NCBI RefSeq assembly: GCF_003058225.1
Contig: NZ_QBUG01000009.1
Location: forward strand, 124,001-188,000
Direction: 5' to 3'
Length of the DNA stretch: 64,000 nt
Source of the DNA: Promicromonospora sp. AC04
GTDB lineage: Bacteria > Actinomycetota > Actinomycetes > Actinomycetales > Cellulomonadaceae
Below, one piece after another: positions 4,365 to 59,314 of this stretch; position 1 is the first letter of the stretch; each line of letters begins with the position of its first letter. Below the pieces are notes generated by a model. That model saw only the letters and a program-made list of their open reading frames with translations, did no database searches and had not been told where the DNA came from. The translations under genes were made by a program, and so were the position numbers.

Positions 4365-5608
4365 GTGACGCGGCACGCGACCCAGCGGTGCGCGACGTCG
4401 TGGTGGTCGGCGCCTCGGCGGGTGGCCTGGCCACCGCCGAAGGCCTGCGCCGGGGCGGGTTCACCGGGCGGATCACGCTGGTCGGCGCCGAGCCGCACCT
4501 GCCGTACGACCGGCCGCCCTTGTCCAAGCAGGTCCTGGCAGGGGAGTGGGAGCCTGACCGGCTCCCGCTCCGGCCCGACGCCGACATCGAGGCGCTGAAC
4601 CTGGACCTGCGACTGGGCGTGACGGCAACGGGTGTGGATCCCCGGGCCCGCACGGTCGCCCTGGATACCGGGGAAGAGGTCGGCTACGACGCCCTGGTGG
4701 CGGCCACCGGGGTGAGCCCGCGCCGGTTGCCCGGTGGCGGGGGCCATGTGCTCCGCGACCTGGAGGATGCCCTCGCCCTGCGGGACCGGCTGCGGCCGGG
4801 CCGGCGCCTGGCGGTGGTGGGTGCCGGGTTTCTCGGTGCGGAGGCCGCGGCGGTGGCCCGTGGCCTGGGCTGCGAGGTCACGGTCGTGGAGCCGGCCCCG
4901 GTGCCCCTGGCGCACGCGGTGGGTGCGCAGGTCGGCCAGGTGCTGACCCAGGCGCATCGCGAGCGGGGCGTGGACCTGCGTACCGGAGTCGGCGTCACGC
5001 AGGTGTACGACGGCGGGCTGGAGCTGGCCGACGGCACGACCGTCGAGGCCGACGACGTGCTGGTCGCCGTCGGCTCGGTGCCGAACACGGGGTGGCTGGA
5101 GCTGGGCGGGCTGCCCGTCGCGGACGGCCTGGTCTGCGACGAGTACTGCGCCGCGGCGCCGGGCGTGTACGGGGTCGGCGACGTGGCCCGGTGGGACAAC
5201 CCGCTGTTCGGGACGTCGATGCGGATCGAGCACCGCACGCACGCCGGCGAGCAGGGCCTTGCGGTGGCGCGCAACCTGCTGAACCCCGACGAGCCCCGGC
5301 CGTTCGCCCCGGTGCCGTACTTCTGGTCGGACCAGTACGACATGAAGATCCAGGCCTACGGGTACCTGCGCGGGCACGACGAGGTCCGGATCGTCGAGGG
5401 CGACCCGGCCGAGCGGCGCTTCCTGGCCGCGTACCGCACCGGCGACCGGCTCGTGGGCGTGCTCGCGATCGGTCTGCCGCCCCGGGCGCTACGCCCGTGG
5501 CGCCGGCACATCGCCGCGGGCGCCACCTGGTACGACGCCGTGGGCGACCCGCCCGCCGGCGAGACGACGGAGCCACGAGAGGTGGTCAGCGATGTCGCAC
5601 CGGCCTGA
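4361..5608 (+). CDS. FAD/NAD(P)-dependent ferredoxin reductase
   Basis: A 415-residue protein of the putidaredoxin/rhodocoxin reductase type. The FAD-binding start is VVVGASAGGLATAE (~residues 12-25); a second dinucleotide fold VVGAGFLGAEAAA lies near residue 150; the FAD ribityl-contact motif YGVGDVAR is near 270; PYFWSDQYD, typical of this family's C-terminal domain, follows. It would move electrons from NAD(P)H to the upstream ferredoxin and so to the P450. The GTG start overlaps the ferredoxin TGA as GTGA, showing translational coupling. Confidence 0.92.
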   Translation: MSDAARDPAVRDVVVVGASAGGLATAEGLRRGGFTGRITLVGAEPHLPYDRPPLSKQVLAGEWEPDRLPLRPDADIEALNLDLRLGVTATGVDPRARTVALDTGEEVGYDALVAATGVSPRRLPGGGGHVLRDLEDALALRDRLRPGRRLAVVGAGFLGAEAAAVARGLGCEVTVVEPAPVPLAHAVGAQVGQVLTQAHRERGVDLRTGVGVTQVYDGGLELADGTTVEADDVLVAVGSVPNTGWLELGGLPVADGLVCDEYCAAAPGVYGVGDVARWDNPLFGTSMRIEHRTHAGEQGLAVARNLLNPDEPRPFAPVPYFWSDQYDMKIQAYGYLRGHDEVRIVEGDPAERRFLAAYRTGDRLVGVLAIGLPPRALRPWRRHIAAGATWYDAVGDPPAGETTEPREVVSDVAPA

Positions 5609-6428
5609 CATGCAGGAGGAGGTGGTGGTCGTCACCGGCGCCGGAGGCATGGGCGAGGCCATCGCCCGCAGGATCGGCACCGGCCGCCGCCTGCTGCTGG
5701 CGGACTACTCGGACCACGCGCTCCAGCGCGCGGTACAGGCACTGGACGAGTCCGGGTACGCCGTCACGGGCGTGGTCACCGACGTCTCCGACCGCGCCTC
5801 CGTGGACCGGCTGGCCAAGGCGGCTGCCGACGCCGGCCGGCTGGTCGCCGTCGTGCACACCGCCGGCGTCTCCGCCGCCACCGCCACGCTCGAGCAGGTG
5901 CTCGCCGTCGACCTCGTCGGCACCGCGCACGTGATCGACGCGTTCGAGGAGGTGGCCGCGCCAGGGCTCGTGCTCGTGTGCATCGCGAGCATGGCCGGGC
6001 ACTACGCGCAGCTGACCGGGCAGCAGGAGCGGGAGCTCGCGACGACCCCGGCCGGCGAGCTCAGGGACCTGCCGGTCGTGCAGGCGCTCGCCGACCCCAT
6101 GCAGGCCTACATCCTGGCCAAGCGCGCCAACCAGGTCCGCGTCCAGGCGGCAGCGCTCGCCTGGAACCTGCGTGGCGCCCGGGTGAACACCGTGAGCCCC
6201 GGGGTGATCTCCACGGCCATGGCCAAGGCCGAGGCCGCCTCGGCGTCGGGCAGCCACATGCTCGGGATGCTCGATGCCTGCGGCATCGGCCGCATGGGCA
6301 GCACGGGCGAGCTCGCCGAGGCCGTCGCGTTCCTGGTCGGGCCCGGTTCGCGGTACGTCACCGGGACGGACCTGCTGGTCGACGGCGGACAGGCCGCGTG
6401 GATCCGGCACCACATGCCCGTCCCATAG
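5592..6428 (+). CDS. short-chain dehydrogenase/reductase (SDR)
   Basis: A 278-residue classical SDR. The cofactor loop is TGAGGMGEA (~residues 15-23), and the catalytic residues are Ser133 (CIASMAG) with Tyr173 and Lys177 (YILAK). VNTVSPGVI and the C-terminal VTGTDLLVDGG are normal for the family. The Asp at the end of the second strand (LLADYSD) would favour NAD(H) over NADP(H). The start overlaps the reductase gene by 17 bp, so it belongs to the P450 operon, where it may oxidise the alcohol made by the P450 to a ketone (inference). Confidence 0.88.
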   Translation: MSHRPDMQEEVVVVTGAGGMGEAIARRIGTGRRLLLADYSDHALQRAVQALDESGYAVTGVVTDVSDRASVDRLAKAAADAGRLVAVVHTAGVSAATATLEQVLAVDLVGTAHVIDAFEEVAAPGLVLVCIASMAGHYAQLTGQQERELATTPAGELRDLPVVQALADPMQAYILAKRANQVRVQAAALAWNLRGARVNTVSPGVISTAMAKAEAASASGSHMLGMLDACGIGRMGSTGELAEAVAFLVGPGSRYVTGTDLLVDGGQAAWIRHHMPVP

Positions 6429-8915: not shown

Positions 8916-11900
8916 CGGTCTGGGCGGCCGTCGCGAGCAGTGTGTACCCGCGCTCGTGGGCGACGGCCCCCGCGCGCTCGGCGGCGAGCCGTGCCGCCTC
9001 GTCGTCCCCCGCCAGCCGGAGGGAGCGGGCCAGCCCGAGCTGCGCCCTGGCCTCGAGGTAGGTGTAGGAGTACTCCACGGCGATGTCGACGCTGGTTCGT
9101 AGGTGGTCGATCGACTGGGCGAGCTCACCGCAGTCCCTCAGCGCGTTCCCGAGCGTGCAGGCGGTCATGGCGCGGGCCCGGTTGTCGTTCACCCTGAGGG
9201 CGAGCTCGTGGGCCTGCCGGGCCAGGGTCAGCCCCAGGGCCAGGTCGTTGCGGTCGGTCGCCAGCCGGCCCATCTCGTCGAGCGTCGAGAGCTCGCCCCG
9301 CATGTCGCCGCGGCGGCGGTAGCCGTGCAGCGCGACGTCGAGGTGGCTGCTCGCCTGCTCCAGGTCACCGCTCCGCCGCAGGGCGCTCGCGAGGTTGCCC
9401 CGGTTGGCGAGGGCGGACGCCTCCCGGCCCGCGGCCTCGTTGATCGCCAGCGCCGCTCCGAGCTGCGTGGCGGCCTTGTCGAGGATCCCTCGGTCGAGCT
9501 GCACCATGCCCGAACCGTTGAGCGACGCCGCGCGCACGTGCCCGTTCGGGTCGTCGGCGGTGAGGTCGAAGGCCCGGCCGAACCACGTGTCGGCGTCCGC
9601 CAGCATGCCGAACTCGTAGTACTGCCAGCCCACGTTGTGGGAGAGATAGGCGGCCGCGGCCCTCCAGCCGCACTGCTCGGCCATCTCCTGCGCCTCGAGC
9701 ATGGCGTCGAGCGCATCGGCGTCGCGTCCGGCCGCGCTGAGGGCCTGCCCCCGGCCCAGCAGGGCCGCGACGCGCACCCGTGGCTCGTCCGATCCGGCCG
9801 CGGCGTGCCACCCGGCGTCCGCCACCCGCTTCCAGCCGTCCACGTGGCGCCGGATCAGGAAGTAGCCGCGCAGCTGGTCGGCCACCGTCCAGGCGAAGGA
9901 TGCATAGCGGTCGTCGGCGGCCGCCCGTTCGACGAGCCGGATCAGGGCGCCGGCCTCCGTGTCGAGCCAGTCGAGGGCCTGCGTCTCGTCGTCGAACCAC
10001 CGCCCGCGGTCCGGATGGCTGCTGAGCCGGACGAGCTGGGGGTAGACCCATTCCATCGCGGCGGTCACCAGCTCGGAGTACCACTCCAGGAGGTGGTCCA
10101 GCGCGGCGTCCGCCTCGCTCCGCTCGGGTCCGGTGCCGGCCAGCCTGCGGGAGTACAGCCTGAGGAGGTCGTGGAACCGGAAGCGGTCTGGCGTGTACTG
10201 GAGGAGCATGTTCGCGTCCAGCAGCTCGTCCAGCAGGCGTTCCGCGGACGCCGGGTCGACGCCGAGCAGGACGGCGGTCGCCGGGACGCCGAAGTCCTCC
10301 CCGGGGTGTACCGAGCAGAGCCGGAACGCCCGTCGTGCCGAGTCGTCGAGCCGGTCGTAGCTGAGCTGGAAGCTCACGAGCACGCTCGACGCCCCGTCGT
10401 CGAGCTGGGCGAGCCGGCCGTTCTCGTCGCGCAGGCGGTGCGCGAGGTCGCTGACGGCCCACGACGGCCTGCTGGCGAGGCGCGCGGCGGCGATCCGCAG
10501 TGCGAGCGGGAGGTGCCCGCAGGCCGCGCCCAGCTCGCCGGCGGCAGCGCCGTCGACGCCGGTCCGGTCCCTGCCGGCGACGAACGCGATGAGGTCCACC
10601 GACTCCTCGGGAGACAGCGTGCCGAGCCCGATCACCGCCGCGGCGTCCAGGCCGCGGATCAGGTGGCGGCTGGTCACCAGGACGTCGCTCCGCCCGGTTC
10701 CGGGGAGCAGGTGGCGCACCTGGTCGGCGTCGCGCGCGTTGTCGAGCACCACCAGCATCTGGCGGTCGGCCAGCTCGCTGCGGAAGTGGGAGGCGGCCTC
10801 GCCGGGGTCCCGCCCGACCTGGTGCCCGGGGACGCCGAGCGTCCGGAGAAACCGGTCGAGGACGCTCATCGGCTCGATGGCGGTCCCTGACGCGCCGCCG
10901 AGGTCGGCATAGAGCTGACCGTCCGGGTACTGCGGCCGGAGCCGGGTCGACGCCGCGTGCGCGAACGCCGTCTTGCCGATGCCCGCCGGGCCGTGCACCA
11001 GGACGAGCCGGGACGACGCCTCGTGCGCCTCGGACGCCGGCCGGGCGAGGCTCGCGGCGACGCGGTCGAACTCGCCCTTCCGGCCGACGAACCCGGACGG
11101 CGCCGCCGGTACCTGCTGGATCACCGGACGGGGACTCGCCTCGGAGAGGTGCCAGCGTTGCCGGAGCACGCCGAGATGCGTCTCGCGCAGCTCCTGCCCG
11201 GGGTCGAGGCCGAGCTGGTCCGCGAGGCTGGACCGGATCCGTTCGTATGCCGCAAGCGCCTCGGCCTGCCGGCCGCCGGCGGCGAGCGTGATGATGAGCT
11301 CGGCGTGCACCGGCTCGTTGAGCTCGAGCTGCGACGCCAGCCGGCGCAACGGCCCCAGCGAGTACTCCGGCCGGCCGATGTCGCGGGCGATCGCGGCGAA
11401 CTGGCGCAGCACCGCGACGTACTCGTCGGTCATCGCGGCCGCCAGCGGGGTCTCGCGCAGCTCGTCGAGATCCGGCTCGCCCCGCCAGAGGCCGACGGCC
11501 TCCAGGAGGAGGCCGAAGGCCGCCTCGGGCGCGACGGTCTCGGCCTGCCGGGCGAGCGCGCGGAACTGGAGGAGGTCGAGCATGTCGGGCGCCACCTCGA
11601 GCCGGTATCCGGTGCGCGACGCGACCAGCAGCCTCGCGCCGGACGGCCCCAGGAGGCGGCGAAGGCGGGCGACGTGCGTACGGAGCAGCTTCGTCGCCTC
11701 GTCCGGCGGCTCCTGGCCCCAGAGGAGGTCCACCAGCTCGTCCCGTCCGACGGGCTGGCCGACGCCGAGGGCCAGCCTGGCCAGCAGGAGATGCTGCATG
11801 GTGGAGCCGAGCGCCGTCCGGGAGTCGCCGTGCCACAGCTCGACGGGCCCGAGAACCTTGATGGAGACCGGTTCGGCGGAGTCCGGGTGCCGGTTCGGCC

Positions 11901-12283: not shown

Positions 12284-13042
12284 TCAGCTCACGCCGATGA
12301 CGCGGTAGACGGCGACGACCTCCGGGGAACCCAGCTGCCGCGCGTGGAGGCCTGCCGGGCTGCTCGGGCCCGGTGCGTCGTAGACGTAGCCCTCCGACCA
12401 GTAGAAGGCCACGTGGTCGACGACGGGATCCGCGTCGATGGTGGAGAAGATCAGGTCGCCCCGCTGGACGTCCGCGATGCTCACCCGGATCGCATCGACC
12501 TTCGTCCGCCTGCCGTCGTTCGCCAGACCGTCCAGCCAGGCCTGCTGTGATCGTGAGTCGCGCTCGAAGTGCCCGAACCCGGGGAGCTGGGTGAAGGACC
12601 ACTGCACGAGGCATGAGCAGTCGATGCGCTCGCCGGGCTCGCACCCCAGCCCGTAGGGGGTGCCCTCCTGGAGCTGCGCCGACCGGAGCGCGTCCTTGCC
12701 CCAGTTCCAGACCCGCTTGCTGGTCGTGCACGTGGAGCGGGACCCGTCGTCGGCGTCGAGCGGCATGACCTTCCTGCCGCCGCCGCATCGCAGGAGCGCG
12801 CCGCGGATGCCCGGGTCGGCCGGGGACGCCTGCGCCCCGGCCTCTGCCTGCGCGGGCACCTCCGCCTGCGCGGGCACCTCCGCCTGCGCGGGCACCTCCG
12901 CCTGCGCGGGCACCTCCGCCTGCGCGGGCGCCTCCGCCCGTGCCGGCGGCGCGAGGGCGGGCTCGGTGCCGAGCGAGCCGGCAAGAGCCGCGGTGACCAG
13001 GGCGAAGGCTGCCGCCGTCCGGCCGAGCTTCTCGATGAGCAT
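12284..13042 (-). CDS. secreted NlpC/P60-like peptidase
   Basis: A 252-residue exported protein: signal peptide (~1-25), then a linker of AEVPAQ hexapeptides (~35-65), then an NlpC/P60-like domain. The catalytic Cys would be in ERIDCSCLVQWSF (normally DCSGLVQ) and the His in VDHVAFYW; GDLIF between them is typical. Four further cysteines could form disulfides. I chose the ATG at 13042 (AAGGA upstream; direct entry to the signal peptide); a GTG 15 bases earlier is possible. Four 11-bp repeats lie 60-97 bp upstream, and the SARP gene follows on the same strand, which suggests one regulated operon. Confidence 0.8.
   Translation of the reverse strand: MLIEKLGRTAAAFALVTAALAGSLGTEPALAPPARAEAPAQAEVPAQAEVPAQAEVPAQAEVPAQAEAGAQASPADPGIRGALLRCGGGRKVMPLDADDGSRSTCTTSKRVWNWGKDALRSAQLQEGTPYGLGCEPGERIDCSCLVQWSFTQLPGFGHFERDSRSQQAWLDGLANDGRRTKVDAIRVSIADVQRGDLIFSTIDADPVVDHVAFYWSEGYVYDAPGPSSPAGLHARQLGSPEVVAVYRVIGVS
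12841..12947 (-). repeat. 18-bp tandem repeat inside the NlpC/P60 gene
   Basis: About five copies of an 18-bp unit (plus-strand core CCTCCGCCTGCGCGGGCA) encode the AEVPAQ linker. Copies are nearly identical at the DNA level, which suggests recent expansion by slippage. Spacing and frame stay in multiples of three. Confidence 0.85.
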
Positions 13043-13101
13043 CACGTGGTCCTTCACTGTCGGTGCGCTCAACGTAGGAATCCGGCCGCTCGGGGAAGTT
13101 C

Positions 13102-13139
13102 CCGTACTCGGCCCGTACCTCGTCCGTATCTCCTCCGTA
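13102..13139 (-). promoter_or_regulatory. four 11-bp direct repeats (SARP-type operator)
   Basis: CCGTA starts at 13102, 13113, 13124 and 13135, exactly 11 bp apart; on the minus strand each reads TACGG. Direct repeats at 11-bp spacing are the known site type for SARP activators and other OmpR-fold regulators. A possible -10 TACGTT (13076-13071, minus) lies between the repeats and the NlpC/P60 start. Confidence 0.65.
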
Positions 13140-13301: not shown

Positions 13302-14306
13302 ATGACCCCCGCCGGACCTCGGAAGGTGGCCGCGTACCTCGCTGCGCTGGCCGGACTCAGCCTCACCCTGGCCGCCTGCTCCTCGGGCGGCGGTGGCGAC
13401 CCCGCCGCCTACCCCGAGGACGACATCGAGGTGATCGTGCCGTTCTCCGCCGGCGGCCCCACCGACACCGTGACGCGCATGGTCGCCGAGCCCATGTCCG
13501 AGGAGCTGGGCGTGCAGCTGGTGGTGCAGAACGTCGACGGCGCCGGCGGCACCGTCGGGGCGGGCCAGGCCGCGGCGGCCGACCCCGACGGCTACACGGT
13601 GCTCATGCACCACATCGGCATGTCGACGGCCCCCGCGCTCTACGACGACCTCGCCTACGACCCGGTGACCGACTTCAAGCCGGTGGGCCTCGTCACCGAG
13701 GTGCCCATGACGATCATCGCGCGCTCCGACTTCGAGCCGGAGACGTTCGAGGACTTCGTGACCTACGTCCAGGAGAACGCCGACACGGTGACGATGGCGC
13801 ACGCCGGCGACGGCTCCGCGTCCAACCTGTGCGGCCTGCTCCTGATGGACGCTCTCGGCGTCCAGGTGACGGCGGTGCCCTACGACGGCACGGGCCCCGC
13901 GATGACCGAGCTCGTCGGCGGCCAGGTCGACTTCATGTGCGACCAGACCACGAACACGACCGGCCAGATCACGGCGGGCGAGGTCAAGGCGTACGCGGTG
14001 ACCACGCCGGAGCGCATCGAGGCCCTGCCCGACCTGCCCACCACGGCGGAGGGCGGCCAGCCCGACGTCGAGGTCAGCGTGTGGCACGGCCTGTACGTCC
14101 CGGCCGAGACGCCGGACGAGGTGGTCAGCACCCTCACCGACGCCCTCCAGGTAGCGCTGGCGGACCAGGCGGTGATCGACCAGATGGCCGACCTCGGCAC
14201 GGCCCCCGTGAGCGAGGACCAGGCCACCCCGGAGGCGCACGCGGCGCTGCTCGAGGAGCAGATCGCGACCTGGGGCGAGATCATCGGCGCCGGACAGGGA
14301 GGCTGA
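13302..14306 (+). CDS. tctC: tripartite tricarboxylate transporter substrate-binding lipoprotein
   Basis: A 334-residue TctC/Bug-type protein. A lipoprotein signal ends in LAAC with Cys26 as the lipidation site, followed by a Ser/Gly linker. Bug-family landmarks are IVPFSAGGPTDTVTR (~47-61), GAGGTVGAGQAA (~80-91) and the PYDGTGPAMTELVGGQVDF segment (~193-211). It captures a carboxylate outside the membrane and hands it to TctA/TctB. The three genes lie in the order C-B-A with short gaps. The ligand is likely a di- or tricarboxylate, but Bug proteins vary widely. Confidence 0.93.
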   Translation: MTPAGPRKVAAYLAALAGLSLTLAACSSGGGGDPAAYPEDDIEVIVPFSAGGPTDTVTRMVAEPMSEELGVQLVVQNVDGAGGTVGAGQAAAADPDGYTVLMHHIGMSTAPALYDDLAYDPVTDFKPVGLVTEVPMTIIARSDFEPETFEDFVTYVQENADTVTMAHAGDGSASNLCGLLLMDALGVQVTAVPYDGTGPAMTELVGGQVDFMCDQTTNTTGQITAGEVKAYAVTTPERIEALPDLPTTAEGGQPDVEVSVWHGLYVPAETPDEVVSTLTDALQVALADQAVIDQMADLGTAPVSEDQATPEAHAALLEEQIATWGEIIGAGQGG

Positions 14307-16528: not shown

Positions 16529-17275
16529 TTAGACGGTGAGGAGGCCGCGCAGGAGGGCTGTGATCGCGCCCGCGACGGCTACCGTCAGGGCGATGGCCGA
16601 CGCGACCCGGGTCGGGACACGGCGGGCCAGGACGGTGCCGAGCGCGACCCCGGCGAGCACGGCGACGAGCAGCACGGGCCAGACCCACCAGGCGGGTGCG
16701 GATCCGGCCGGGATCGCGCCGAGGGCCAGCTTGGTGACCACCGACATGGTGTTCATGACCACGAGCAGCGGCTGCATGGTCGCCGCGAACGACCGGTGGT
16801 CCCAGCGGGTGGCCAGCGCGTACGCGGTCCAGGCGGGCGCCGCGACACCGGAGGTGGTGTTCATGAAGCCCGCCGCCAGGCCGGTGGCGACCGCGACGGA
16901 CCGGCCCTCGATCCGGACCCGCCGGCGCAGGAGCGCCGAGGCGGCCAGCGCGACCAGCACCGACCCGCCAACGATCACGTCGAGCCACGCGGCGTCGGCC
17001 TCGCGGACCGTCAGCGCACCGAGGATCGAGCCCACGAGCATGAGCGGCAGGATCGTGACGACCCGCCGCCAGTCCACCCGGTCCCGGAGCGCCCGCAGGA
17101 TGAGCAGGGCCGTGACGATCGCCGCCACGTTGCTGACCAGCACGCCCACCGACGCGCCGAGGAACACCGTGAGCACCGGCGCGGCGACCAGGCCCAGGCC
17201 CATCCCGGCGACCCGCTGCAGGCCGGCCCCGAGGACGACGGCCACGCAGGCTGCGATCAGGGCCGTCGTCTCCAC
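16529..17275 (-). CDS. TauE/SafE-family membrane exporter
   Basis: A 248-residue protein with about eight transmembrane helices. The two half-domains start with GLQRVAGMGLGLVAAPVL and GFMNTTSGVAAPAWTAYAL, the repeated signature of the TauE/SafE family, whose members export sulfite, sulfoacetate and other organic anions. GTG start; TATCGT (17287-17282) lies six bases before it with no SD, so it may be leaderless and separate from the cox-type operon just upstream on the same strand. The substrate is unknown. Confidence 0.85.
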   Translation of the reverse strand: METTALIAACVAVVLGAGLQRVAGMGLGLVAAPVLTVFLGASVGVLVSNVAAIVTALLILRALRDRVDWRRVVTILPLMLVGSILGALTVREADAAWLDVIVGGSVLVALAASALLRRRVRIEGRSVAVATGLAAGFMNTTSGVAAPAWTAYALATRWDHRSFAATMQPLLVVMNTMSVVTKLALGAIPAGSAPAWWVWPVLLVAVLAGVALGTVLARRVPTRVASAIALTVAVAGAITALLRGLLTV

Positions 17276-17830: not shown

Positions 17831-18697
17831 TCACGCCGCCCCCGCCGCCGCGAGCACTGCCCGCCGGGCGAGCACGGTCGCGAGGTGCCGCCGGTAGTCG
17901 GCGTCCCCGTTGAGGTCCGACGGCGGGCTGGTGCCGTCGGCCACGGCGGCGCAGGCCGCGCCAACGGCCTCCGCCGTCGGCGTCATGCCCACGAGCGCCT
18001 CCTCCACCGCGCGCGCCCGCAGCGGCGTCGGCCCCATGTTGGTCAGGCCGATCCGCGCCTCGGAGATCGTCTTCCCGTCGGCCATGCGCACGCATGCGCC
18101 GACCGCGATGATGGGCCAGTCCTGAGCGGTGCGCACGAACTTCTCGTACCTGGAACCCCATCCGGGGTACCCGGGGAACCGGACCGCGACGAGCAGCTCG
18201 TCCTCCCCGACGGCGGTGGTGAACAGGTCCTGGAAGAACTCGTCGGCGGGAACCACCCGCTCGCCGCCGGGCCCGGCGATGACCATCTCGGCCCCGAGCG
18301 CGAGCGCCACCGCGCCGCAGTCCCCGGCGGGGTCGGCGTGGGCGAGCGATCCGCCAAGGGTGCCGCGGTGCCGGACCTGGGGGTCCCCCACCTCGGCGAC
18401 GGCGTCGTGCAGGAGGCGGAGCCCGGTGCGGATCTCGTCGGAGGCGAGGATCTCGTGGTACGGCGTCATGGCGCCGATCTCGATGGCGCCGCCACCTCCG
18501 GCGACCTCGCGGATGCCGCGCAGCGCGTCGATGCGGCCGATGTCGACCACGAGCTCGGGCGCGTTGAGCCGCATGCGCAGCACGGACAGGAGGGACTGGC
18601 CGCCGGCGAGCACCTTGGCGTCGTCGGACCCGGCGAGCAGGCCGAGCGCCTCGTCGACGCTGGTGGGCCTGGCGTACTCGAACGGTGCGGGGATCAT
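17831..18697 (-). CDS. coxM: molybdenum hydroxylase FAD subunit (CoxM type)
   Basis: A 288-residue FAD-binding medium subunit. The flavin motifs are AGGQSLL (~33-39) and TLGGSLAHADPAGD (~110-123), followed by the CO_deh_flav_C domain (~175-285). It takes electrons from the two [2Fe-2S] clusters of CoxS and passes them to an acceptor. Its ATG overlaps the coxL TGA as ATGA, so expression is coupled. It is the third structural subunit in the S-L-M order seen in form II enzymes. Confidence 0.9.
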   Translation of the reverse strand: MIPAPFEYARPTSVDEALGLLAGSDDAKVLAGGQSLLSVLRMRLNAPELVVDIGRIDALRGIREVAGGGGAIEIGAMTPYHEILASDEIRTGLRLLHDAVAEVGDPQVRHRGTLGGSLAHADPAGDCGAVALALGAEMVIAGPGGERVVPADEFFQDLFTTAVGEDELLVAVRFPGYPGWGSRYEKFVRTAQDWPIIAVGACVRMADGKTISEARIGLTNMGPTPLRARAVEEALVGMTPTAEAVGAACAAVADGTSPPSDLNGDADYRRHLATVLARRAVLAAAGAA

Positions 18698-21114
18698 GAA
18701 GCGCTCCCATCCTGGATGGCGCGCCAGACGCGCGCTGGCGTGCAGGGCATCTCGACGTCGTGCACGCCGTAGGGCCGCAGCGCGTCGACGACGGCGTTCA
18801 CCACTGCAGGCGTGGACGCGATGGTCCCGGCCTCGCCGACGCCCTTGGCGCCCAGCGAGTTCGAGGTGGCGGGGGTGCTGCGGATCGCGGTGTCGAAGCT
18901 GATGAGGTCGGCGGCGCTGGGCACGAGGTAGTCGGCGAGGGTGCCGGTGAGCAGGGTGCCCGCGTCGTCGTACACCGCCTCCTCCCACAGGGCCTGGGCG
19001 ATGCCCTGCGCGAGCCCGCCGTGCACCTGCCCGGCGACGATGAGCGGGTTGATGACCGTGCCGACGTCGTCGACGCACACGTACTTGCGCAGGCGCACGG
19101 CGCCGGTCTCCGTGTCCACCTCGACGGCGCACAGGTGCGTGCCGTGCGGGAAGGAGAAGTTCACCGGGTCGAACGTGACCTCGGCGTCGATGCTGGGTTC
19201 GATGCCCTCGGGGTAGTCGTGCGCGGCGAAGGCGGCCAGGGCGATCTCCTGGATCGTCTTGGCCTCGCTCGTGCCCGCCACGGTGAACTTCCCGTGCGCG
19301 AACTCGACGTCGTCGGCGCTGGCCTCCAGCAGGTGGGCGGCCCACGGCTTGGCCTTGGCCACTACCTTGTCCGCCGCGAGTGCCAGCGCCTCGCCGCCGA
19401 CGGTGAGGGACCGGGACCCGTAGGTGTCCAGGCCGCGCGGGGCGACCTGGGTGTCGCCGTGCAGGACCTCGACGTCCTCGAAGGGGACGCCGAGGCGGTC
19501 CGCGACGATCTGGCTGAACGCGGTCTCGTGCCCCTGGCCGTGGGCGCTGGAGCCGGTGACGACCTCGACCTTGCCCGTGGGGAGCATGCGGATCTCGGCG
19601 TGCTCCCAGCCTCCGGCGCCGTAGTCGAGGCTGCCGAGCACGCGGGAGGGCGCGAGACCGCACATCTCGGTGAACGTGGAGATGCCGATGCCGAGCTGGA
19701 CGGGGTCGCCTTCCGTGCGCCGTCGCGCCTGCTCGGCGCGGAGGTCCTCGTAGCCGAAGGCATCCACGGCCTGGGCGGTCGCGGACTCGTAGTCGCCGGA
19801 GTCGTAGGTGAGCCCGGCGACGGTGGTGAACGGGAACTCGTCGTGCGTTATCCAGTTCTGGCGGCGGACCTCGAGCGGGTCGCGGCCGAGCTCGACGGCG
19901 AGCTCGTCCATGAGGCGTTCGATGGCGAACGTGGCCTCGGGGCGTCCGGCGCCGCGGTAGGCGTCGGTCCAGGTCTTGTTGGTCAGGACCGTGCGGCAGT
20001 CGAATCGGTAGGCGGGAAACTTGTAGATGGCGTTGTACATGAAGGCGCCGAGGACGGGCACGCCGCCGCCCACGAGGGCGACGTAGGCGCCGAGGTCGGC
20101 GAGCAGCTCCACCTTGAGGCCGGTGACGGTGCCGTCGGCACGGGCGGCGAGGGTGAGCTTCTGCCACTGGTCGCGGCCGTGGTGGGCGGCGAGCAGCGAC
20201 TCGGAGCGGGTCTCGGTGTACTTGACTGGCTTGCCGAGGCGGCGCGCGACGGCGAACGCCGTCCACTCCTCGGGTGTGGTCTGCAGCTTGCCGCCGAATC
20301 CGCCGCCGACGTCGGGCGCGATGACCCGGATCTTCGACTCGGGCACGCCCGTTGTGGCGGCCAGGAGGAAGCGGGTGATGTGCGGGATCTGGGTGGCGGA
20401 CCACATGGTGATCTGCTCGCCGGTGGGGTCGACGACGACGGAGCGGGGCTCCATGAAGGCCGGGATGAGCCGCTGCTGGCGGTACTCGCGCTCGATGACT
20501 ATGCCGTCCGTGCGGGCGGCGGCGATGGCGTCCTCGACGTTGCCGCCGGTGCCGGCCTCGCCGGAGTCGAAGATCCACCGGGCGGAGTTGTTGGTGCCCA
20601 GGCCGGGGTGCGCGATGGCACCGCCGTTCTCGGGGGTCGCGTCGGCGGCGGCCCTGAGGTCGAGGGCGGCGGGCAGCGGGTCGTAGTCGACGTCGACTAG
20701 CTCGGCGGCGTCGGCGGCCGTGGCGGCACTGCGGGCGACGACGACGGCGACGATCTCTCCGGCGAACGCGACCCGGTCGACGGCGATCGGCTTGTGCTCG
20801 GGCGCGACCTGGTCGGGCGTGATGGGCCAGGCGTTGGCGAGGACGCCCTGCGTGTCGGCGAGGTCGGCGCCGGTCAGTACGGCGACGACGTTCGGGGACT
20901 GGGCCGCGGCCCGGGTGTCGATCCCCGAGATGTTCGCGTGCGCGTACGGGCTGCGCACCATGGCCAGGTGCAGGGTTCCGGGCGGCGCGATGTTGTCGGT
21001 CCAGCGGGTGCGTCCCGTGATGAGCCGCCGGTCCTCCTTGCGGCGCCGGTCGCGGCCGATCTCGCCGTCGTGGGCGGCCTCGGCGGTGGCGGGGGCTTCT
21101 TCCGTCGTGGTCAT
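18694..21114 (-). CDS. coxL: molybdenum hydroxylase large subunit, form II CO-dehydrogenase type
   Basis: An 806-residue molybdopterin-cytosine-dinucleotide subunit of the xanthine oxidase family. GGGFGGK (~269-275) and the catalytic Glu in GVGEAG (~Glu761) are present. The active-site loop reads AYRGAGR (~385-391), which marks form II enzymes; true CO dehydrogenases (form I) have AYxCSFR with the Cu-binding Cys. CO oxidation is therefore doubtful, and another aldehyde, heterocycle or carbon substrate is possible. Start and stop both overlap the neighbouring subunit genes as ATGA, so stoichiometric expression is expected. Confidence 0.92.
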
Positions 21115-39666: not shown

Positions 39667-41109
39667 ATGAGCACCACCCCTGAGCACCGTGCGCCGTCCG
39701 CGCTTTCGCCCGCCACCGTCGTCGTCACTGCCGGACGCCCCGACCGTGAGCAGGGCGGGCACGTGAACCCGTCCGTCCCAATGAACTCGACGTACGTCTC
39801 GCGCGGCGTGATCACGCCCGGCGAGCTGTCGTACGCGCGCGGCGACAACGACGCGTGGCACCCGTTCGAGGCGGCGCTCGTCGCGCTGGAGTGCGGCGAC
39901 GGCGGGGCTGCCGGCGGCGATGGCGGGACCGCCGACGGCGATGGCGGGGCCGCCGGCAGCGACGGTGGGGCCGACGGCGGAACGGCCCGCGGCGAAGGGA
40001 TCGTCTTCGGCTCGGGCATGGCGGCGATCGCCGCCGTCTTCTCCCTGGTGCCCGACGGCGGCACGATCGTGCTGCCGCGGCACGCCTACCAGGCGGGCAT
40101 GGTGCTCGCCGACCAGATCAGGGACCGGCACGGGGTGACCCTGCGGCACGTCGACATCGCGGACACCGACGCCGTGGTCGCGGCCCTGGACGGCGCCGAC
40201 CTGCTGCTCGCCGAGTCGCCCACCAACCCCATGCTGGAGGTCGCGGACCTGCCGGCGGTGCTGGCCGCGGCGCGGGAGCGCGGGGTGCGCTCGGTGGTGG
40301 ACAACACGTTCGCGACGCCGCTGGGTCAGCGGCCGCTGGAGCACGGCGCCGACATCGTGCTCCACTCCGTCACGAAGTACCTGGCCGGCCACTCCGACGT
40401 CGTCCTGGGTGCGCTCGTGACGCGCGACGCCGCCCTGGCCGCCACCCTGCGCGAGCACCGCACGCTGCACGGCGCGATCGCCGGACCGTTCGAGGTGTGG
40501 CTCGCCCTGCGCGGCCTGCGCACCCTGGCCCTGCGCTTCGAGCGCGCCCAGGCGAACGCGGCCGAGCTCGCCCGGCGTCTCGCGGAGCATCCCGAGGTCG
40601 CCGAGGTGCGGCACCCCTCCCTGCCCGGCGATCCCGGCCATGAGCGCGCCAAGGCCCAGATGAACGGTTTCGGCGCGATCCTCGGCGTCCGGCCGGCGCC
40701 GCGTCCCGGGGTCGCGGGGTCAGCCGGGGTCGCGGGGTCTGCCGGATCCGCAGGTTCTGCTGGGTCCGCGGGTTCTGCCGGTTCTGCCGAGTCGGCGGGT
40801 TCTGCCGGTTCTGCCGGGTCCGCAGGTTCTGTCGGGGCTGCCGGGTCCGCGGGTTCTGCCGGTTCTGCCGAGGCTGCCGATTCTGCCGGGACGGGGGCGG
40901 ACGCCGTCGAGCGCGCCGACGCCGTCGTCGACGCCGTGCGCCTGTGGCTTCCCGCCACGTCGCTCGGCGGGGTGGAGTCCATGCTGGAGCGCCGCCGCCG
41001 CTGGGGTACCGAGGCGGCGACGGTACCCGAGGACCTGCTGCGCCTGTCGGTCGGCATCGAGGACGTCGAGGACCTCTGGGCGGACCTGGACCAGGCCCTC
41101 CGCTCCTGA
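39667..41109 (+). CDS. PLP-dependent trans-sulfuration enzyme (cystathionine gamma-synthase/lyase family) with repeat insertions
   Basis: A 480-residue Cys/Met-metabolism PLP enzyme. The PLP lysine is Lys237 in SVTKYLAGHSD; SPTNPMLEV and VDNTFATP bind cofactor; SLGGVESM is the family C-terminal signature. Relatives are ~380-400 residues. The extra length comes from two in-frame low-complexity insertions: a GDGG-type stretch (~78-112) and a SAG-repeat stretch (~352-408). Both fall between conserved blocks, so activity may be kept. TATTCT (39654-39659) lies seven bases before the ATG: a leaderless pattern. Synthase, lyase or methionine gamma-lyase cannot be told apart here. Confidence 0.88.
   Translation: MSTTPEHRAPSALSPATVVVTAGRPDREQGGHVNPSVPMNSTYVSRGVITPGELSYARGDNDAWHPFEAALVALECGDGGAAGGDGGTADGDGGAAGSDGGADGGTARGEGIVFGSGMAAIAAVFSLVPDGGTIVLPRHAYQAGMVLADQIRDRHGVTLRHVDIADTDAVVAALDGADLLLAESPTNPMLEVADLPAVLAAARERGVRSVVDNTFATPLGQRPLEHGADIVLHSVTKYLAGHSDVVLGALVTRDAALAATLREHRTLHGAIAGPFEVWLALRGLRTLALRFERAQANAAELARRLAEHPEVAEVRHPSLPGDPGHERAKAQMNGFGAILGVRPAPRPGVAGSAGVAGSAGSAGSAGSAGSAGSAESAGSAGSAGSAGSVGAAGSAGSAGSAEAADSAGTGADAVERADAVVDAVRLWLPATSLGGVESMLERRRRWGTEAATVPEDLLRLSVGIEDVEDLWADLDQALRS
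40720..40890 (+). repeat. tandem GSA/SAG-coding repeat in the trans-sulfuration gene
   Basis: Units of 9 and 15 bp built on GGTTCTGCCGGTTCTGC and GGGTCCGCA encode SAG/GSA repeats. TCT codons are frequent here but rare in the surrounding genes, so the tract differs in codon use. Confidence 0.85.
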
Positions 41110-58525: not shown

Positions 58526-59314
58526 GTGACCAGGATCGTCGCGGGCTCCCTTGGCGGCCGCACCATCGCGGTGCCACCCAAGGGCACCCGCCCCACGAGC
58601 GACCGCGTCCGCGAGGCGATCTTCTCCCGCCTGGAGCACCTCGGCGTGCTCGACGGCGCCCGCGTGCTCGACCTCTACGCCGGCTCCGGCGCGCTCGGGC
58701 TGGAGGCCGCCAGTCGTGGTGCGGCGTCGGTGACCCTCGTGGACAGCGCGCGCCCCGCGGCCGACGTCGCGCGCAAGAACGTCGCCGCGCTCGGGCTGAC
58801 CGCGGTGCGCGTCGCCACGGAGACCGCAGAGCGGTTCGCGGCGGCGCTGGCGGGCGCGCGGCCGGGGGCGGCGCCAGCCTCAGGCGCCACGTCGGGTTCA
58901 CGCGCGGCGTCGGACCCAGGCGCGGCGTCACGCACCGTGGGAGCGCTGGACCTCGTCTTCCTCGACCCGCCCTACGACCTCGCCGAGGACGCGCTCGCGG
59001 TCGTCCTGACGCACCTGGCCGCGCCGGGCGTGCTGGCCGACGGCGCCGTCGTGGTCGTCGAGCGCTCGACCCGCACCCCCGAGCCGGCCTGGCCGGACGG
59101 CCTGGCCGCGTTCGCGCGCAAGGACTACGGGGAGACGGCGGTCTACTACGCGGAGCCGACGGACGCGGAGTCGATCGACACAGGGCCGTCAGACACAGGG
59201 CCGTCAGACACAGGGCCGTCAGACACAGGGCCGTCGGACACAGGGCCGTCGGACACTGGCCCGTCGGACACTGGCCCGACGGACATACGACCGTCGGATA
59301 GCGTGGACGCGTGA
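58526..59314 (+). CDS. rsmD: 16S rRNA (guanine(966)-N2)-methyltransferase
   Basis: A 262-residue SAM-dependent methyltransferase: RIVAGSLGGRTIAVP at the N-terminus, the SAM loop LDLYAGSGALGLEA (~51-64), and the catalytic LDPPYD (~153-158). Relatives end near residue 190-200. Here an extra ~30-residue Ala/Ser-rich insertion (~112-140) precedes the catalytic motif, and the C-terminus carries seven DTGPS repeats. The GTG at 58526 has TACGCT seven bases upstream, a leaderless pattern. Its stop overlaps the coaD GTG. Confidence 0.9.
   Translation: MTRIVAGSLGGRTIAVPPKGTRPTSDRVREAIFSRLEHLGVLDGARVLDLYAGSGALGLEAASRGAASVTLVDSARPAADVARKNVAALGLTAVRVATETAERFAAALAGARPGAAPASGATSGSRAASDPGAASRTVGALDLVFLDPPYDLAEDALAVVLTHLAAPGVLADGAVVVVERSTRTPEPAWPDGLAAFARKDYGETAVYYAEPTDAESIDTGPSDTGPSDTGPSDTGPSDTGPSDTGPSDTGPTDIRPSDSVDA
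59177..59281 (+). repeat. 15-bp tandem repeat (DTGPS x7) at the end of rsmD
   Basis: Seven head-to-tail copies of GACACAGGGCCGTCA (later copies read GACACTGGCCCGTCG) encode DTGPS; an eighth, decayed copy follows. The -10-like TAGCGT of coaD lies in the decayed end. Confidence 0.9.

Follow-up and report, generated by a model that had tools for sequence, protein, structure and literature searches.

A candidate SARP operator of four in-phase 11-bp repeats before an NlpC/P60-regulator gene pair in Promicromonospora, and related predicted promoters in other genera

The window, a stretch of 64,000 nucleotides from Promicromonospora sp. AC04, contains four direct repeats with a period of 11 bp upstream of a gene pair encoding a predicted secreted NlpC/P60 protein and a SARP-type regulator. 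This array is very probably the operator-promoter of the NlpC/P60-SARP operon and is most likely bound by the adjacent XRE-SARP-NB-ARC-TPR protein, an assignment that comes from sequence comparison. The sequence-only reading of the same DNA had proposed a SARP operator here, and the candidate is now supported by the layout in a relative of the same genus (G007), by the flanks of regulator orthologs, and by the co-occurrence of site and regulator in Kribbella. The features are listed in Table 1.

Table 1. Features of the candidate operator-promoter and its neighbours, in window coordinates
Feature	Position	Strand	Remarks
Candidate operator, four in-phase 11-bp repeats	13102..13139	-	Similar arrays at regulator orthologs
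TACGG cores (CCGTA on +)	13135-13139, 13124-13128, 13113-13117, 13102-13106	-	
Possible fifth, degenerate 11-bp repeat TCCCCGAGCGG over the -35 region	13086..13096	-	Suggested by register with the third Kribbella repeat
-10 box TACGTT	13071..13076	-	25 nt past the last TACGG, 28 nt from the ATG
Predicted target, secreted NlpC/P60 protein, 252 aa	12284..13042	-	ATG at 13042, GAAGGA before the ATG
Predicted regulator, XRE HTH - Trans_reg_C - BTAD (SARP) - NB-ARC - TPR, 1113 aa	8896..12237	-	Pfam
Divergent tctC, first of the TctC-TctB-TctA transporter set	13302..14306	+	Pfam TctC

On the plus strand, CCGTA is present at 13102, 13113, 13124, and 13135, a period of exactly 11 bp. The array is read on the minus strand, where its units are GTACGGAGGAG, ATACGGACGAG, GTACGGGCCGA, and GTACGGGAACT. 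The 5-bp core TACGG is the same in all four units, and the 6-bp GTACGG is found in three of the four. Originally described as four perfect 11-bp repeats, the array has the positions and exact phase then given, as borne out by pattern match, but the 11-mers are not perfect, only the 5-bp core being identical. The four-copy pattern matches the array with 0 mismatches and has 0 matches in 100 dinucleotide shuffles (up to 3 mismatches allowed). When all 5-mers of the window are compared, CCGTA at 13102 is the only one with four copies at period 11, and a search of all 6,848,551 bases of the genome places the exact three-copy pattern in this array only, as two overlapping matches. The opinion that four in-phase copies are hard to obtain by chance agrees with the shuffles and with the uniqueness of the array in the genome. 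The two-copy pattern TACGG-N6-TACGG has 6 genome matches, 3 in the array and 3 elsewhere, and the reversed control pattern also has 6. A genome-wide scan for a regulon, as the same reading had suggested, therefore gives chance-level matches in the window's own genome, where the flanks shown for the other 3 lack a TAnnnT at the expected position; in Kribbella it gives many sites.

The array is located in a 259-bp intergenic region common to the NlpC gene and tctC, with its near end 162 bp from the tctC start. The NlpC/P60 gene and the regulator gene form a minus-strand pair, with the regulator second after a 46-bp gap, in agreement with the claim that a SARP gene lies in the operon just downstream. 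The NlpC/P60 protein has a Pfam NLPC_P60 match (E 2e-9, 37.8 bits, cut-off 23) and, as read by eye, a signal-like N-terminus and the motifs DCSC and DHVAFYW. With the domain above cut-off and the Cys and His motifs present, it is a predicted member of the NlpC/P60 family. The Cys of DCSC and the His of DHV are presumably the catalytic residues of this protein, whose activity is a prediction. Within the gene, an 18-bp tandem repeat (12828-12930, minus strand) encodes PAQAEV units that sit between the signal sequence and the catalytic domain. A plasmid search with the NlpC gene and the intergenic region returned one irrelevant 84-bp match.

The regulator has the domain order of the SARP family, an OmpR-type winged helix (Trans_reg_C, 35.6 bits, cut-off 26.2) followed by BTAD (78.2 bits, cut-off 22.1). 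Behind the SARP part it carries NB-ARC (29.0, cut-off 23.5) and TPR_12 (48.5, cut-off 30.1), as large SARPs do. Its best PDB matches are the AfsR structures 8k60 and 8jke (E 4e-95 and 2e-94). The protein is not an AfsR ortholog, scoring 465.8 bits against a cut-off of 1430 for NCBIfam NF053617 and possessing an extra XRE domain. AfsR residues T88 and R92 contact DNA, according to the available portion of PMC10936776, and in the alignment their counterparts in the window protein are the T and R of LLRTHVARLRRLL. T and R also occupy these positions in all 15 near orthologs from other genera, where the segment reads LL(H/Q)T(H/R/Y/Q)(V/I)(A/G/T)RLRR. In the window's own family, the regulator orthologs L061 and L063 keep R and have I or A at the T88 position, and their sites are window-like. 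Because several distant SARPs share T and R as well, the match fits a SARP and not this clade specifically.

Among relatives, G007, of the same genus, retains the regulator (45% identity) and the adjoining NlpC gene with the whole layout, namely GTACGGGCGGGGTACGG, then 25 nt, then TACCTT, before the NlpC gene. The sequence-only reading would have taken close relatives with both genes and no repeats as evidence against an operator, and the opposite is seen in this genome. G176 encodes the regulator (49%) and has two arrays GTACGG-N5-GTGCGG, in which the second copy is GTGCGG and not GTACGG, each 25 nt before TACCTT. One precedes a protein with B_lectin and NlpC/P60 domains adjoining the regulator; the other precedes predicted genes left unclassified, of which the one scanned has no Pfam match. 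In G173, of the same family, an NlpC homologue is present, the regulator has no ortholog at E<=1e-100, and the stretches fetched show no array of this kind.

The regulator is rare in the window's family, with matches at E<=1e-100 in 5 of 221 genomes: the window's own, G176 and G007 (45-49%), and two more at 33-38%. The NlpC protein has a match in 2 of the 13 genomes of the genus, the window's own included, these being the window's and G007 only. In a class-wide sample, the regulator was found at E<=1e-150 in 1 of 394 genomes, the window's own. With this single match the sample is useless for a test of distribution, and Kribbella was therefore used instead.

A scan of named genomes gave 44 SARP loci, made up of 15 near orthologs (L006-L019 and L022, 48-54% identity) and 29 more distant ones (L020, L021, and L023-L049). 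GTACGG-N5-GTACGG is present in the fetched flanks of 11 of the 15 near orthologs. At the 29 distant loci there is no perfect adjacent TACGG pair and none with a pair at the -10 spacing; L047 has one weaker three-copy match. In Nonomuraea (L006, L008, L017, L018) and Prauserella (L007), the site lies 25 nt before TAnnnT and precedes an NlpC-like protein, as judged by BLAST with the window NlpC. The arrays of L006 and L017 extend to four copies, with a single mismatch overall.

Glycomyces departs from this spacing. At L009, L010, and L013 the site precedes Tat-type secreted proteins with a DCSGF motif, of which L009 alone has an NLPC_P60 match, below cut-off. The -10-like TAG box of these loci and of L262 and L263 is 34 nt away, not 25. 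No local GTACGG pair is found at L012, L015, L019, and L022, and remote matches are present in their genomes. For L012, also Glycomyces, these are two sites with the 34-nt spacing before similar proteins. In the L015 genome (Actinophytocola, G622), the plain two-copy pattern has 4 matches against 6 for the reversed control. Three of the four Actinophytocola matches (L264, L265, L266) are spaced at 25 nt, and a rough choice of ORFs places them before response regulator, ParB-like, and membrane-protein genes, not secreted proteins.

Kribbella offers a natural contrast of presence and absence, as 19 of 38 genomes encode the regulator (called at E<=1e-180). The extended site GTACGGNNNNNGTACGGNCAG is found in 18 of the 19 genomes with the regulator (92 matches) and in 3 of the 19 without it (4 matches); its reversed control matches 3 times over the 38 genomes together. 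For the association between site and regulator the Fisher test gives p=1.3e-6, a value that overstates independence owing to the kinship of the genomes. The exceptions were inspected individually. G659, with the regulator and without an exact site, has a one-mismatch site beside the regulator. G632 has two good sites and no full-length ortholog; pieces of the ortholog, 51-56% identical and spread over more than one reading frame, persist as a remnant located at L246 (G632:C27), about 4700-6120. G647 and G657, both without the regulator, have a single site match apiece, whose spacers depart from the consensus. At three Kribbella loci (L174, L175, L176) the site immediately precedes the regulator gene itself.

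A promoter consensus was derived by stacking 93 of the 96 Kribbella extended-site matches without gaps, 91 from regulator genomes and 2 from G632. The three not stacked are the sole matches in G647 and in G657 and a match of G627 that departs from the consensus. The consensus reads GTACGGGYGnR, GTACGGGCAGn, GnngYGtCRgc, nine bases, and TAnnnT. In 75 of the 93 sites the distance from the second GTACGG to TAnnnT is exactly 25 nt; it is 24 and 26 nt in one site each. The degenerate third unit, GnngYGtCRgc, covers the -35 region, with 9 nt between its end and the -10. The search pattern fixed both GTACGG copies and the CAG and left the third unit and the -10 free, so the conservation of these two is independent evidence.

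Direct repeats with an 11-bp period upstream of the target promoter, the mark of a SARP operator, are thus observed in both the window array and the 93-site consensus. The repeat over the -35 region is seen in Kribbella and weak in the window itself, and the Glycomyces spacing differs. Published SARP sites overlap the -35 and may comprise three heptamers, as stated in the available part of PMC10972967, and the layout therefore reads as a SARP promoter with extra upstream units.

The predicted targets in Kribbella are mostly of secreted type. One of the 93 sites gave no ORF, leaving 92 predicted proteins, of which 66 have a strongly hydrophobic N-terminal stretch, compared with 44 of 212 control genes. 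Signals were called by a hydropathy threshold and not by a trained predictor, and the control genes were required to have a coding score >15, which the targets were not. The figure of 66/92 is probably low, because several start codons look picked too far downstream. Pfam matches among 20 target representatives include PG_binding_1, Amidase_6, inhibitor I36, BNR, polysaccharide lyase, TAP-like hydrolase, DUF4333, and fibronectin type III, and 9 of the 20 have no Pfam match. Three of the Kribbella targets are the regulator genes themselves.

One large target family without a Pfam match is found in 15 of the 19 regulator genomes and 2 of the 19 others. Of its 34 matches, 30 were retrieved as loci, and one of these was unreadable, giving 29 upstream regions. 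A pair matching the core at 11 or more of 12 bases is present in 17 of the 27 upstream regions from regulator genomes, the remaining 10 readable copies being without a site, and in 0 of the 2 readable regions from genomes without the regulator. The second-largest target cluster (18 members, single linkage) has a representative without a Pfam match and only a weak tachylectin-2 match (E 0.041), and no function is claimed for it.

On the operator-promoter reading, the SARP part of the regulator, at about residues 115-365, would bind the tandem 11-bp repeats as side-by-side winged-helix protomers, with the most promoter-proximal protomer over the -35 region. Once bound, the regulator would bring RNA polymerase to the -10 box TACGTT, with transcription predicted to start near 13064 on the minus strand, and the secreted, putatively wall-acting NlpC/P60 enzyme would be switched on. 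The regulator may also switch on itself, a proposal made because its gene is second in the same operon. The NB-ARC and TPR parts could gate activation in response to a signal.

The repeats might instead be bound by another OmpR/PhoB-type winged-helix regulator or by a SARP paralog, with the adjacent regulator as a bystander. Such sharing has a precedent, as PhoP recognizes the same direct repeats as AfsR at afsS (available part of PMC10972967), and SARP-like paralogs are numerous in Kribbella, with 8 to 32 matches at E<=1e-20 in each of the four genomes covered by a lower-threshold search (G632, G647, G657, G659). This explanation is nevertheless unlikely, since the extended site is almost confined to Kribbella genomes with an ortholog, while G632, G647, and G657, which have no intact ortholog, still have paralogs. 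Sites also occur near the ortholog in several genera and, at the three Kribbella loci, directly before its gene.

From its position in the shared intergenic region, the array could be taken to control the divergent tct transporter genes, either by themselves or along with the NlpC gene; this is highly improbable. The conserved 25-nt spacing to TAnnnT reads towards NlpC, and G007 keeps NlpC and the site while its divergent gene, judged by eye, is not tctC. On this site geometry, which indicates the other strand, and on the evidence of the relative, tctC was set aside as a candidate and is probably not the target. A functionless tandem repeat, neutral or arisen by chance, could be argued from the other period repeats of the window, such as the 18-bp tandem from 12828, and has a very slim likelihood indeed: the shuffles give none, and core, phase, and -10 distance recur across several genera though the intervening bases differ.

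The operator architecture proposed for the NlpC/P60-SARP pair is classical for SARPs. The closest known system is AfsR and the afs box of the Streptomyces coelicolor afsS promoter, in which a large SARP with NB-ARC and TPR binds tandem 11-bp direct repeats over a poor -35, close to the -10, the box spanning -40 to -19 (PMC10936776, in the portion available). The afs box sequence differs, being CGTT(T/C)ATCGNN in the accessible text of PMC10972967 as against GTACGG here, and the array has up to four good copies and one degenerate copy. The XRE domain of the window regulator, absent from AfsR, is N-terminal. The sites of DnrI, ActII-ORF4, VlmI, FdmR1, and PimR consist of heptamers with 4-nt spacers, again an 11-bp period (same portion of PMC10972967). 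For AfsR, Aur1PR4, and FdmR1 the distance from site to -10 is 8 bp, as given in part of PMC7040171, compared with 9 nt for the proximal degenerate copy here. The three-heptamer sites are described for antibiotic gene clusters, in contrast to the predicted targets here, which are mostly secreted and in several cases wall-related. The target resembles the RipA/RipB/RipC-type NlpC/P60 peptidoglycan hydrolases in its NlpC/P60 domain above the Pfam cut-off. Its similarity to RipC is weak (18.8 bits, far under the NCBIfam cut-off of 425), and it differs from that type in being paired with a SARP-NB-ARC-TPR regulator.

Most medium and large SARPs are said not to be well investigated (PMC10972967, available part). 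A literature search found no description of this regulator subfamily, the GTACGG motif, or the secreted target set, and the portions seen of the literature treating XRE together with SARP do not describe this fusion. The present comparison adds a putative XRE-bearing SARP subfamily with a GTACGG motif and predicted targets that are mostly secreted and often wall-related. The apparent regulon size ranges from one dedicated hydrolase in some genera to up to 17 sites in a Kribbella genome, where sites mostly precede secreted-type proteins, including peptidoglycan-binding, amidase, peptidase-inhibitor, and sialidase-like proteins, among others. Judged from the target proteins, an adjacent NlpC/P60 protein and mostly secretion-signal-like Kribbella proteins, this is probably not an antibiotic-cluster system.

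A broader interpretation, tentative and at somewhat less than even chances, is that XRE-fused SARPs with an NLR-like sensor made of NB-ARC and TPR form a distinct subfamily in control of a "wall-active secretome", by way of GTACGG promoters of at least three repeats, the whole serving as an inducible extracellular antibacterial arsenal and not as an antibiotic-cluster switch. That the purpose is antibacterial or competitor-sensing is guessed from the kinds of target protein. SARPs are known chiefly as antibiotic-cluster switches, and here a computed operator links a sensor-bearing subfamily to secreted, often peptidoglycan-related proteins in several genera. The promoter consensus is exact enough for regulon prediction, and together with the Kribbella contrast it makes the signal and purpose of such regulators directly testable.

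Some further observations concern the surroundings of these genes. Near the Tct genes, the minus strand encodes a TauE/SafE exporter (16529-17275) and a molybdopterin-binding xanthine-dehydrogenase-like subunit (18694-21114). Other short-period repeats of the window have periods of 15 bp (near 59177) and of 27 and 9 bp (near 40771-40857). At L063, the predicted target protein (10870-11751, minus strand) is composed of a bulb-type lectin domain and NlpC/P60, and its lectin part is weakly similar to putidacin-type lectin-like bacteriocins (45.7 bits, cut-off 275).
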